Part shown: positions 40,528-46,026 of the stretch, piece after piece
Numbering within the stretch: the stretch's first letter is position 1
Layout of the letters: each line of letters begins with the position of its first letter
Source: Oscillospiraceae bacterium
GTDB taxonomy: Bacteria; Bacillota; Clostridia; Oscillospirales; Ruminococcaceae
NCBI GenBank assembly: GCA_031253495.1
Contig: JAIRWC010000012.1
Location: forward strand, 1 to 64,000
DNA: 64,000 nucleotides
Direction of reading: 5' to 3'
Program-made: the position numbers and the translations under genes
Notes under the pieces: generated by a model
What the model was told of the DNA's origin: nothing
Databases searched by the model: none
The model's input: the letters and a program-made list of their open reading frames with translations, nothing else

Positions 40528-42411
40528 TCAAAAATAATCATAGCCGTAGGATGAGTACAACGCGAAGACGTCTTTAAGGACGTACCCCACAATGTCATAA
40601 ACGCCGTTGTCGTCAAGGTCGTCTACGATTATCAAAAGATTCCGCCCGGCTTGCTCGCTCAAGTCGTAATAGGTGTCGGAGTAGGTATCGTCCATATCGA
40701 CGCTGTTATCTCCCGTCAGATTGGGGTACGGCTTTCCCGAAAAACCTTCGGAATAGGTAAGCTCGACCGTCGCGACCTTTACGTATCCCAATTCCAAACT
40801 GCCTTTGAACCCGTTTTCCCTGAACGACATCTTAATCGCGACGACATCGCCCAGTTCCTCGGTTAAAGCGCCGGAAGTAATCGTAATGTCGCCGCCGGTG
40901 ATTCTGTCGTCCTTATCGAACGTCAGCCCCGAGTATGACGCGGACACGCCCACATCTTTGCTAACCTCGCGGTATTCCCAGGTGTCGTAGTCCCATTCGG
41001 TATCTTTGTATTTGACATTCAGCCGCGTTTCGCCCGTGTAGACGCCTTTTTGGTTTTCGCCGGAATCGGTAAGCTTAACCGTCGTTTCGCCGGATTTCAA
41101 AACCACTTCCGTTTCGTATTTGCCTTTGCTCTCCAAAGCGGTGTAGGTGAAGCCCACGCCGTCGTCGCCGCTCGGGAAGATTTCACGCTTTACTATATTC
41201 CCGCCGTTTGAGTAAACGACCATCACGATGATGCTTTCGGAACCGTTTGCGTCGGCAATCAGCATTTCAAGCGAGTCTATCCCCGCGGAAATAACGCCGT
41301 CAATTTCAAACCCCGCGGAACCGTAGTAGCCGTAATCGTATACTTGATTGAAACAGTCGTTAATATAGGTCTTGACGCCGTCGCTCTTATCCACGGCCTT
41401 CAATAAGGCGAGGGCGAGTTTGTACGCCATTTCTTCCGTGATTTCTATCTCTACGGCGTCGCACTTCAACGAAATGCCGCCGAGGCTTACCTCCGCGTTT
41501 TTCTTGACGGGGGCGTCTTTCGTAAGGTTAAAATACTCGTCCCACACGGCGTCGTAGATTTTCTCGAACTCTTTGTCGGACGGCATATTAACGGACGCCG
41601 CCGAGTAAATCCCCGAATAATCGACGTCGTATCCCGCCGATTCTATAGACGCTTTCAAATACTTTTCGGCTAATTTCGGGATGTACAATACAAATTCGTC
41701 GCCTTTCAGCCACATATCCGCCGAAACGATTTCCTTTTCGCCGTTTTTGTAAGTCAGCCCGGCGAACACGTCGCCGCCGTCCACGGCCGACCTTAATATA
41801 ACCGTGGTGGGGTTAATCGTCTGCGGAACGTCCATATACAAATCGTCGCGCATGAAGTTCAAAATGTATTCCTCGGGCGTGAATTTGACGACGACCTCGC
41901 CGCCGTCGGACGATTCGGTCAGGCCGCTCAAGGCGGAATAAGCGGTAACCCCGTTCTTGACAAAACTGCGCTCCGCCCTTTCGTAAGACGATTGCCCTTT
42001 CAGGTTGATTATCGGGTTGTCCCCGCGCGTAAGCAGGAATATACCCCCGCCCAACAAAGCCGCCGCCAATACCGCTACCAACGCGATAACCGGAGCCTTA
42101 GACCTCGCTCTTACCGCGCCGAAACCCGCCGTAACGGGGACGTAGCTTGATTGCTGATACGGCTGCGCCGGTTGTTGATACGGCTGCTGATACGGCTGCG
42201 CCGATTGCTGATACGGCTGTGCCGATTGTTGATACGGCTGCTGATACGGCTGTGCCGATTGCTGATACGGCTGTGCCGGTTGCTGATACGGCTGCTGATA
42301 CGGTTGTGCCGATTGCTGATACGGCGGCTGCTGATACGGTTGTGCCGGTTGCTGATACGGCTGCTGATACGGCTGCTGATTTCCAAACGCGTCGTTTCTG
42401 TTTTCTTCCAT
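40528..42411 (-). CDS. membrane-anchored protein with N-terminal Gln/Tyr/Pro-rich repeat domain and large extracytoplasmic domain
   Basis: (QPYQQPAQPYQQS)n, then one TM (APVIALVAVLAAALLGGGIFLLTRG), then ~500 aa extracellular region. Confidence 0.75.
   Translation of the reverse strand: MEENRNDAFGNQQPYQQPYQQPAQPYQQPPYQQSAQPYQQPYQQPAQPYQQSAQPYQQPYQQSAQPYQQSAQPYQQPYQQPAQPYQQSSYVPVTAGFGAVRARSKAPVIALVAVLAAALLGGGIFLLTRGDNPIINLKGQSSYERAERSFVKNGVTAYSALSGLTESSDGGEVVVKFTPEEYILNFMRDDLYMDVPQTINPTTVILRSAVDGGDVFAGLTYKNGEKEIVSADMWLKGDEFVLYIPKLAEKYLKASIESAGYDVDYSGIYSAASVNMPSDKEFEKIYDAVWDEYFNLTKDAPVKKNAEVSLGGISLKCDAVEIEITEEMAYKLALALLKAVDKSDGVKTYINDCFNQVYDYGYYGSAGFEIDGVISAGIDSLEMLIADANGSESIIVMVVYSNGGNIVKREIFPSGDDGVGFTYTALESKGKYETEVVLKSGETTVKLTDSGENQKGVYTGETRLNVKYKDTEWDYDTWEYREVSKDVGVSASYSGLTFDKDDRITGGDITITSGALTEELGDVVAIKMSFRENGFKGSLELGYVKVATVELTYSEGFSGKPYPNLTGDNSVDMDDTYSDTYYDLSEQAGRNLLIIVDDLDDNGVYDIVGYVLKDVFALYSSYGYDYF
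42140..42385. repeat. coding tandem repeat (CTGATACGG / GTTGATACGGCTG units)
   Basis: Repeated ctgatacggctg(ctgatacggctg)tgccgattg; encodes QPYQQ(P/S)AQ. Confidence 0.9.
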
Positions 42412-42434: not shown

Positions 42435-43010
42435 TTATTCCTGCTTAACCCCGTCCTCAAAATCGGCGGGCAACTCGCCCCTTATGCCGTCCGTAATAAT
42501 TTCGGCGCAAAGCAACTTGACGAGCGCCGCCTCGTCTTTCGGGTTTTCGCGGTCTCCCGCCAAAGACGACAACTCTTCAATTTTTTCGCTCAATTTCCGA
42601 ACGGCGTCGGGTCTGCCGTCAAGCTCGCTCAAACCGTTAAGCTTTTCGCACGTCAACCGATAACCGTCCTGATACGGAGACAAAGTAACCAAGCTTATCA
42701 TCGGGCAACCCAACACGGTTTCTACCAACGCCTCCGTAGTCATGTCCTTTAAAATATCATCGGGAACTTGGGACGCGTCGAGCTGACGCCCGGCTTCCGC
42801 AATCTCATACCACCCCGGGTCGCCGGGGACGACGGGGAACACATACGGCTCGGTGATGGTATAAGCCTTTACCTCATTTCCTTCGTGCCCATTTTCATCG
42901 GCGGCGGAAAAAACGTTCAAAAGCAACGCGACAGCCAGTAACAGCAGCGCGACCGCCGACAACGACAACGCGGGGAAAATCCGCCGAAAATCCGTCTTTT
43001 TCATTTTCAT
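42435..43010 (-). CDS. secreted protein, stand-alone paralogue of the N-terminal domain of the adjacent Cys-peptidase-like protein
   Basis: 191 aa; N-terminal signal/TM; near-identical to residues 1-~190 of 43069-44061. Confidence 0.75.
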   Translation of the reverse strand: MKMKKTDFRRIFPALSLSAVALLLLAVALLLNVFSAADENGHEGNEVKAYTITEPYVFPVVPGDPGWYEIAEAGRQLDASQVPDDILKDMTTEALVETVLGCPMISLVTLSPYQDGYRLTCEKLNGLSELDGRPDAVRKLSEKIEELSSLAGDRENPKDEAALVKLLCAEIITDGIRGELPADFEDGVKQE

Positions 43011-43068
43011 ACCCTCCTATCAATACATTATACCGATTTCTAATCGAAAACGCCAAATAACCACCTTT

Positions 43069-44061
43069 TCAAGCCAGAGCCCAATAGGTTTTGCTCGTTG
43101 CAAACGCATTGTACGGGCAATCGTTCACAGGATGCTCCACCACCCCCCCATAACCCCATTTAGACCTCACTATCACCACGCCGCCGGTTATCCTTTGTAC
43201 AATTCCGGAATGTTCGTTGGCTATCACAGACGCATGGTAGTAAACTTTACGCCCCGAAGCAGCTGCCGAATATACATAACTGCCGTCCGTAATATACGCG
43301 GTCGCGTTGTTTATCCAGTACGCATTATTTGTGGAAGTACCGTAAAACGCATATGAGTGACAGTTATACTTCGGGTTTACGGTCGTAATTTCCACGGCGG
43401 ACGGATACTGACTGAGGTAGCTGTTGAACACCGCTCGCGCGGAAGACTCAGTGGTATTGTGGTCTGACCATGAAAGATCTTCATAGACAAGTACATTCGT
43501 GTTGTTGGGGGTTCTGATGTACGTTGTGGTATACCGCGATGGCGGATTTACCGAATTTTCCGGCAGTTGCCCGGTCATGCCCTTTACAATGATTTCGGCG
43601 CAAAGCAACTTGACGAGCGCCGCCTCGTCTTTCGGGTTTTCGCGGTCTCCCGCCAAAGACGACAACTCTTCAATTTTTTCGTTCAATTTCCGAACGGCGT
43701 CGGGTCTGCCGTCAAGCTCGTTCAAACTGTTGAACAACCCGCACGCTAACCGATAACCGCTTTCATACTGAAGCAAATAGATATGAGATATGGTAGGGCA
43801 ATTCAGAACGGTTTCGACCAACGCCCCCGTAGTCATGTTCCTTAAAATATCGTTGGGAACTTGAGACGCGTCAATTTTTTGTTCGCTCGTCGTAAACTCA
43901 TACCACCCCGGGTCGCCGGGGACGACGGGGAACACATACGGCTCGGTGATGGTATAAGCCTTTACCTCATTTCCTTCGTGCCCTCTTTCATCGGCGGCGG
44001 AAAAAACGCTCAAAAGCAACGCGACAGCCAGTAACAGCAGCGCGATCGCCGACAACGACAA
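43069..44061 (-). CDS. secreted protein with C-terminal papain/NlpC-like Cys-peptidase-like domain (NCHSYAF ... HSGIV ... SKWG)
   Basis: 330 aa; YNCHSYAFYGTSTNNAYWINN...DGSYVYS...YYHASVIANEHSGIVQRI...VRSKWGYGGVVEHPVNDCPY. True start unclear (aligned ATG is ATA). Confidence 0.7.
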   Translation of the reverse strand: MSLSAIALLLLAVALLLSVFSAADERGHEGNEVKAYTITEPYVFPVVPGDPGWYEFTTSEQKIDASQVPNDILRNMTTGALVETVLNCPTISHIYLLQYESGYRLACGLFNSLNELDGRPDAVRKLNEKIEELSSLAGDRENPKDEAALVKLLCAEIIVKGMTGQLPENSVNPPSRYTTTYIRTPNNTNVLVYEDLSWSDHNTTESSARAVFNSYLSQYPSAVEITTVNPKYNCHSYAFYGTSTNNAYWINNATAYITDGSYVYSAAASGRKVYYHASVIANEHSGIVQRITGGVVIVRSKWGYGGVVEHPVNDCPYNAFATSKTYWALA

Positions 44062-44132
44062 CGCGGGGAAAATCCGCCGAAAATCCGTCTTTTTTATTTT
44101 TTCCTCCTTATGAATTTGCGCACTTACCTGAC

Positions 44133-44161
44133 ATTATATCACGTTTCACGCGGAAAATCAA
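44133..44161 (-). promoter_or_regulatory. promoter for 43069-44061 gene (TTGATT-N17-TATAAT)
   Basis: Reverse strand TTGATTTTCCGCGTGAAACGTGATATAAT. Confidence 0.6.
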
Positions 44162-44238: not shown

Positions 44239-46026
44239 TTACAACGCTTTGCTGTCGATTTCCTCACGAAGCGCGTTTATAAGGCTTTCCGGCGTCATAA
44301 CCCCCAAATCGCCTTTCTTCCCGCTTCTGACGGAAACCTCCCTCTTTTCCGTTTCGCTGTCGCCGACGACGAGCATATACGGAATTTTCGCCATGCGCGC
44401 CTCGCGGATTTTAAAGCCTATCTTTTCGTTCCTCGTATCGATTTCCGCGCGGACGCCGTTTTTGGTTAACTCGTCGCGAATTTCCCCGCAAAAGCCGTTA
44501 TGCCTGTCCGCGATGGGCAGGATTTTCACCTGGACGGGGGAAAGCCAAAGCGGGAACGCCCCCGCGTATTTTTCGATTAGCAAAGCCAGCGTCCTTTCAT
44601 AACAGCCTATCGACGAACGGTGAATGATGATGGGATATTTTTTCTCCCCGTCGGAATCCACATATGTCATGCCAAACATTTCGGCTTGTTGAAAATCGAC
44701 CTGGACGGTAATTAACGTGTCCTCTTTCCCGAAAACGTTGCGGATTTGTATGTCGAGCTTAGGTCCGTAAAACGCGGCTTCCCCGTCGGCTTCGTAGTAA
44801 TCCAGACCGGTTTTGTCAAGGATTCCCCGCATGAAGTTTTGTGTGCGCTCCCACTGTTCGGGTGCGCCTATGTACTTCTCGCGGTTGTTCTCGTCCCATT
44901 TTGAGAACCGAAAACTTATATCCTCTTCCAGACCGAGCGTTTTCAGCAGAAACCTGGCGAAGTCGAGGGCGCCGAAAAATTCTTCCTCCGCTTGCTCCGG
45001 CGCACAGATTATATGCCCTTCCGAAAGCGTGAACTGCCGCATACGGATTAACCCGTGCATTTCTCCGCTCGCCTCGTTGCGGAACAGCGTCGCGGTTTCG
45101 TTATAGCGCATGGGCAGGTCGCGGTAAGAACGTGAACGATTCAGGTACGCTTGATATTGGAACGGGCAGGTCATGGGGCGCAGCGCGAACGTTTCACCGT
45201 TTTTCTCTTCGTCGCCGATTATGAACATTCCGTCGCGGTAATGGTACCAGTGCCCCGAGATTTTAAACAAATCCGATTTGGCGAAAGAGGGGGTTTTCGT
45301 CAGCCGATATCCCCTTTTTTCCTCCTCGTCTTCCACGAAGCGCTGTAAAATCTGAAGGACTTTGGCGCCTTTCGGCAACAGAACGGGCAACCCTTGCCCG
45401 ATAACGTCTGAGGTGGCGAACAGCTCAAGTTCCCGCCCCAATTTATTGTGGTCGCGTTTTTTCGCCTCTTCCAGCTTGGATAAGTATTCTTCAAGCTGCG
45501 ACGCTTTCGGGAACGCCGTTCCGTAAACGCGGCACAACATTTTGTTCTTTTCGCTGCCGCGCCAGTAGGCGCCCGTCGCGCTCGTCAGCTTAACCGCCTT
45601 TACGGGGGTTACGTCGGTCAAGTGGGGACCCGCGCACATATCGGTAAATTCCCCTTGTTTGTAAAAACTGATTTTTTCGGCTTTGCCGCGCAGTTCCCCG
45701 GCAAGCTCGATTTTATACGGCTCGCCTTCGAGGAGTTTCAGCGCTTCGTCCGGCGAAAGCTCGAAGTATTCGAGGGGCAAACCTTCTTTAACGATTTTTT
45801 TCATCTCGGCTTCGATTTTTTCCAAATCCTCGCCCGCAAACGGCTTCTCCGTGTCGAAGTCGTAGTAAAAACCGTTCTCGACGGCGGGCCCCATGCCCAA
45901 TTTGACGGCGGGGTAAAGCCGCTTGACCGCCTGCGCCAAAATATGCGCGGCGGTATGGTGAAAGGCCTTACGCCCCTTTTCGTCGTCGAATGAAAGCAGT
46001 TCGCTTTCGCCCGTGATTTTCAACAT
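44239..46026 (-). CDS. thrS: threonyl-tRNA synthetase (lacks an N-terminal TGS domain of usual length)
   Basis: AFHHTAAHILAQAVKRLYP, RPMTCPFQYQAYLNRSRSYRDLPMR, EMHGLIRMRQFTLSEGHI, HRSSIGCYERTLALLIEKYAGAFPLWLSPVQV. Confidence 0.97.
   Translation of the reverse strand: MLKITGESELLSFDDEKGRKAFHHTAAHILAQAVKRLYPAVKLGMGPAVENGFYYDFDTEKPFAGEDLEKIEAEMKKIVKEGLPLEYFELSPDEALKLLEGEPYKIELAGELRGKAEKISFYKQGEFTDMCAGPHLTDVTPVKAVKLTSATGAYWRGSEKNKMLCRVYGTAFPKASQLEEYLSKLEEAKKRDHNKLGRELELFATSDVIGQGLPVLLPKGAKVLQILQRFVEDEEEKRGYRLTKTPSFAKSDLFKISGHWYHYRDGMFIIGDEEKNGETFALRPMTCPFQYQAYLNRSRSYRDLPMRYNETATLFRNEASGEMHGLIRMRQFTLSEGHIICAPEQAEEEFFGALDFARFLLKTLGLEEDISFRFSKWDENNREKYIGAPEQWERTQNFMRGILDKTGLDYYEADGEAAFYGPKLDIQIRNVFGKEDTLITVQVDFQQAEMFGMTYVDSDGEKKYPIIIHRSSIGCYERTLALLIEKYAGAFPLWLSPVQVKILPIADRHNGFCGEIRDELTKNGVRAEIDTRNEKIGFKIREARMAKIPYMLVVGDSETEKREVSVRSGKKGDLGVMTPESLINALREEIDSKAL

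Follow-up and report, generated by a model that had tools for sequence, protein, structure and literature searches.

Spi, the small partner protein of the streptococcal enzyme SpeB, resembles the SpeB propeptide. In Streptococcus pyogenes, SpeB is an exported cysteine enzyme with an N-terminal pro-part, and its small inhibitor is encoded just downstream, as outlined in a passage of PMC5613712 that cites Kagawa 2005. Genes for cysteine enzymes are likewise linked to those of small partner proteins in the staphopain-staphostatin pairs and in the C10 proteases of Bacteroides with their partners Bfi and Bti, the latter in gut bacteria (PMC3462683). Here we describe a gene pair that may follow a related logic. 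It lies in a 64,000-nucleotide stretch of DNA (hereafter, the window) and consists of a long gene, which encodes an export segment, an N-terminal domain (N-domain) and a C-terminal Cys-His domain (C-domain), and of a short gene, which encodes an export segment and the N-domain only.

Results

Organization of the gene pair

Both open reading frames lie on the minus strand, at the positions given for them in the preliminary description. In that description the long gene (43069..44097, minus strand) extends to 44061, where a TTG would give a protein of 330 aa; an AGGAGG motif and homology to the short gene point instead to an ATA (44095..44097, minus strand), from which the product would be longer. 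The ATA (44097-44095) aligns with the ATG at 43004, the likely start of the short gene, and lies 5 nt after the AGGAGG. We infer a start role for it and regard it as likelier than TTG 44061 because initiation at the latter would remove the charged beginning of the export segment (KKTDFRR). An ATA so well spaced from AGGAGG, where the paralog has ATG, would be a start codon of a rare type, or else one that has been damaged. The ATG is lost from the long gene, whose expression may be poor. Within it, the core of the N-domain (43579..43944, minus strand) matches profile A6 with an E-value of 3e-57 and follows the pattern W..., P..IL..M.T..L...V......G......EL..R.DA, while the C-domain, represented by profile A5, occupies 43072..43560 (minus strand).

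The short gene (42435..43010, minus strand) adjoins the long gene and, as first described, has its own export segment followed by the N-domain alone; its frame is open, with a ribosome site and a start codon. The intergenic gap of 58 nt was searched for a terminator-like site and none was found; it does contain a promoter-like sequence, TTGGCG-18-TATAAT (43027..43056, minus strand). Another, TTGATT-17-TATAAT (44133..44161, minus strand), lies 5' of the long gene. The -10 boxes ascribed to each gene at the outset are therefore present, but their number is not above the shuffled expectation, the region holding three promoter-like sites against 2.1 +/- 1.5 in shuffles, no more than chance. In a composition test for horizontal transfer, the GC content of the gene pair was near that of its neighbours, the part encoding the C-domain being slightly lower (0.489 vs 0.532 for the window).

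Upstream of the pair is thrS (44239..46026, minus strand), a threonyl-tRNA synthetase gene named from its sequence. Downstream, with its start 23 nt past the short gene, is a gene for a 627-aa protein (40528..42411, minus strand) with a single membrane segment, a large outer part and, at its N-terminus, an array of PYQQ(P/SA) repeats (42149-42394); a Pfam search with it returned no match.

The C-domain resembles CHAP and DUF7689 proteins

The preliminary description had compared the C-domain to papain/NlpC-like peptidases on account of its SKWG/CPY motifs together with a Cys in NCHSYAF and a His in NEHSGIV. All of these are present in the long protein, and homologs of the C-domain from genome searches, from plasmids and from one phage-labelled contig share the pattern NCHxYA...GDxVxY...HS(G/A)IV...SKWG...H...PY, in which the Cys, the His and SKWG are invariant. 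The putative catalytic Cys (codon 43360..43362, minus strand) is invariant in all homologs covering the position, and the putative catalytic His (codon 43210..43212, minus strand) and SKWG (43153..43164, minus strand) in 16/16 homologs.

Single-protein searches with the long and short proteins returned nothing above cut-off in Pfam, NCBIfam, PHROGs, PADLOC or the PDB, the best PHROGs result for the long protein being a PHROG of unknown function (E 0.26); a PDB search with the C-domain also returned nothing. The consensus of 16 C-domain homologs matched the Pfam family CHAP (PF05257) with an E-value of 4.8e-6 and 27.4 bits (gathering score, 26), aligning to positions 5-77 of the 81 in the profile. 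Subset consensuses built from two disjoint halves and from random fives matched CHAP in four of five cases, both disjoint halves among them (E 3e-6 to 1e-4, 23.0-28.2 bits), whereas none of four reversed or shuffled control consensuses did. No single member tested matches CHAP, the match arising only through consensus sequences. The Cys and His are 51 residues apart in the homolog consensus and occur in the Cys-then-His order of CHAP proteins. The third catalytic residue of CHAP proteins is often Glu or Asn; no invariant Glu or Asn was seen in this role in the C-domain alignment, which has the invariant SKWG in that region.

The C gene of one genome (G721) matched DUF7689 (PF24738) with 23.0 bits (cut-off, 22.6), and proteins from MT835658, a Flavonifractor plasmid and genome G496 matched the same stretch of this family below cut-off (E 7e-4 to 0.025). 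A search of 149 genomes with PF24738 gave no matches, nor did its controls, and a literature search found no paper on DUF7689, a family without known function. AlphaFold, run on the window proteins with one or two sequences as input, produced unusable models (pLDDT ~33). The CHAP consensus and DUF7689 matches together support the assignment of the C-domain as a divergent CHAP-like Cys-His domain with a papain/NlpC-like fold, and we regard it as a putative enzyme.

Arrangements of the N-domain

The N-domain matched no curated family. Coiled-coil or helical PDB matches (FliS, E 0.019; influenza HA2) were rejected as helical noise.

Fusion of the N-domain ahead of the C-domain was found in ten loci: the window, G329, G493, G496, G514, G727 (twice), G770, the Flavonifractor plasmid and MT835658. 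In Parabacteroides, G721 and G557, the N- and C-domains are encoded by distinct genes, the N gene directly before the C gene, and both products have an export signal; the two Parabacteroides genes (WP_005854650 and WP_005854648 on NZ_OY725812) overlap (ATGA). An N gene precedes a frameshifted C gene in G850 and is accompanied by a broken C remnant in G630. The G850 gene (L033 3393-4005), split by a frameshift in comparison with its close relative in G557, may have decayed, or the assembly may be at fault. N-only genes that lack a neighbouring C-domain are present in G029, G030, G035 (a tandem pair) and, in frameshifted form, on a Hymenobacter plasmid. Two genomes, G454 and G476, have the C-domain behind another N-part that shows only marginal similarity to the N-domain, and to its second half alone (hhalign probability 27%). 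Their C-domain proteins (L050 3102-5211, L037 3292-5428) end in a zinc-ribbon-like tail, and the genes overlap one for a lipoprotein of 342-348 aa. All forms encode an export or lipoprotein-type start, and across the searches the C-domain was almost always accompanied by the N-domain.

The arrangement of the window, with an extra N-only gene after a fused gene, recurs independently in the unrelated genome G496; the same pair does therefore exist elsewhere, although only one other genome has this order. A search of the source genome gave two N-domain matches and no third. In a tree, the two window copies group together (support 100/100), and the fused copy of G496 is closest to its own N-only neighbour (24/41 residues identical over the readable part only, the middle being Ns). 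Because each N-only copy is closest to the fused copy of its own genome, such copies must have arisen more than once.

Distribution and genomic settings

The system was found in 6 of 398 genomes of a phylum-level sample and in 7 of 338 of a class-level sample, and the N-domain in 4 of 149 genomes of a family-level sample. Two genomes of the same genus (G015, G133) have no N-domain, and a scan of genome contigs confirmed no relative. The spread is patchy, includes plasmids, and is known from Bacillota and Bacteroidota.

N-domain genes occur in or beside housekeeping clusters: two lie between grpE and dnaK in G035 (L049 3484-4975), one lies between rbfA and truB in G029 (L047 2318-2779), the G496 pair (L036 2495-4905) is beside infC on a contig that ends just upstream, and the window pair is beside thrS. 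In G329, G493 and G727, the fused gene is followed by one whose product is a small lipoprotein containing an NTKSI motif (L040 4147-4668, L039 4233-4709 and L029 3626-4060), which had no Pfam family at cut-off. The Flavonifractor plautii plasmid NZ_CP095095 carries several toxin-antitoxin modules in addition to the fused gene (L053 20542-21588). MT835658 (L015), although filed as phage, resembles a piece of a Bacteroidota chromosome, with an alpha/beta hydrolase and a TonB-type receptor beside the fused gene.

Relationship of the two window copies

The shared N-terminal region, put at ~190 aa in the preliminary description, is indeed present and spans ~170 residues with 76% identity; the similarity is uneven, a mosaic rather than a uniform resemblance. 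Between the long and short genes, codons 1-65 show no synonymous difference (pS 0.00) and codons 126-171 very few (pS 0.06), while codons 66-125 have a pS of 0.44 and a pN of 0.27. The longest identical run between the copies is 90 nt, a length reached in 0 of 10000 shuffles. The diverged middle segment (43717..43896, minus strand, in the long gene; 42624-42803 in the short gene) thus sits between near-identical flanks, and contains the N-domain motif that is best conserved. Since dN/dS is ~0.5 there, the change is not obviously adaptive.

Such a mosaic is unlike the outcome of a single recent duplication and would fit an older duplication followed by gene conversion that homogenised both flanks. 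It therefore argues against a short gene that is no more than a newly made truncation, an alternative that had been raised for this pair. The old middle segment and the recurrence of N-only genes through separate duplications both run counter to that alternative, although the two same-genus genomes are devoid of the N-domain.

Discussion

With a probability that we put at about 0.45, the gene pair encodes a CHAP-like hydrolase that is exported and has a partner domain dedicated to it, together with a free partner that binds and controls the enzyme in the way that Spi acts on SpeB. The long gene would give rise to an exported hydrolase composed of an export segment, the N-domain and the CHAP-like Cys-His domain, the last of which probably cuts amide bonds in the cell wall or in protein, and the N-domain would be the dedicated, pro-domain-like partner of this catalytic domain. 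The short gene would supply a free exported N-domain, whose most likely action is to bind the catalytic domain in trans and to restrain the enzyme or shield the cell surface from it, in the manner of a propeptide-type inhibitor or immunity protein. Such an inhibitor or immunity role is plausible, and we favour a controlling or protective action that takes place outside the membrane. The simplest reading is a pro-domain-like partner with an additional role in trans, because the N-domain precedes the C-domain and free copies of it lie beside the enzyme. The best evidence comes from the splits and fusions, since parts found in one chain or in neighbouring genes usually touch, and the natural gene splits suggest that the two can work as separate chains. 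It is possible, if somewhat doubtful, that we are looking at an undescribed two-part envelope system of Bacillota and Bacteroidota in which the N partner of a CHAP-like hydrolase is interchangeable between same-chain, neighbour-gene and free forms, the free copies acting as inhibitors of, or immunity proteins against, own or foreign enzymes.

The lone N-only genes of G029, G030, G035 and the Hymenobacter plasmid suggest, on comparative grounds, that the N-domain may also act on its own. They bear on another reading, which we hold to be unlikely, whereby the N-domain is a module that binds or places proteins at the wall, the membrane or a surface partner, and the short protein is a competitor, a scaffold or an independent envelope protein. 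Genes without a C-domain nearby, among them the two tandem lipoprotein genes between grpE and dnaK in G035, agree with this idea, as do the export or lipoprotein-type starts of all forms and the divergence of the window copies in their conserved core, through which specificity may differ. The split genes of Parabacteroides, G721 and G557 nevertheless each encode an export signal, which argues that the N-domain is not needed to place the C-domain at the envelope, and the near-constant company of the C-domain and the N-domain across the searches also speaks against this reading.

Gut bacteria are known to carry orphan immunity genes (PMC12247911, PMC10470768), and the lone N genes of relatives could be viewed as such if the C-domain were a wall-targeting antibacterial toxin and the free N-domain its immunity protein. 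The patchy distribution (6/398 and 7/338 genomes), the occurrence on plasmids and the diverged core segment of the window copies are consistent with this scenario. We nonetheless find it improbable: in ten loci the presumed toxin and its immunity domain form one protein, unlike the usual layout; no domain of a secretion system, a pre-toxin or a delivery module was seen; and searches of PADLOC, PHROGs, Pfam and NCBIfam with the window proteins gave no match at cut-off. Least probable to us is that the short gene is a functionless by-product of tandem duplication. The presence of the same gene order in just one other genome (G496), two same-genus genomes without the N-domain and the large near-identical blocks between the copies could all be read in this way, but the short frame has stayed open and has kept its ribosome site and start codon despite a pS of 0.44 in its middle, N-only genes have a separate origin in G496 and stand alone elsewhere, and it is the long gene that, if anything, has lost its ATG.

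If the reading of an exported hydrolase controlled by a free copy of its own partner domain is correct, the pair would provide a simple setting in which to study the restraint of exported wall or protein hydrolases. The present analysis also defines an uncurated domain family that accompanies CHAP/DUF7689-like hydrolases, and offers a first testable role for DUF7689-like proteins.

Compared with CHAP (PF05257), the Cys-His amidohydrolase/peptidase family of the papain-like NlpC/P60 group, the C-domain has in common the conserved Cys, the GD-x-V-x-Y strand, the His in HSGIV and the order of these elements; its homologs differ in that SKWG occupies the region in which a Glu or Asn is common among CHAP proteins. 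Relatives match DUF7689, whereas the window protein itself does not. Staphostatins are not propeptide copies, whereas the window partner duplicates the N-domain of the enzyme beside it, and the Bacteroides inhibitors Bfi and Bti further differ in being predicted to be mostly beta-sheet. SpeB belongs to family C10, to which the CHAP/DUF7689-like C-domain of the window shows no match, and the cytoplasm is the presumed site of Spi action, whereas the short protein has an export segment. The putative enzyme is of a known kind and the partner arrangement is undescribed; a likeness to SpeB-Spi is that, in the window and in G496, the free partner gene copies the N-terminal part of the enzyme and adjoins the enzyme gene.
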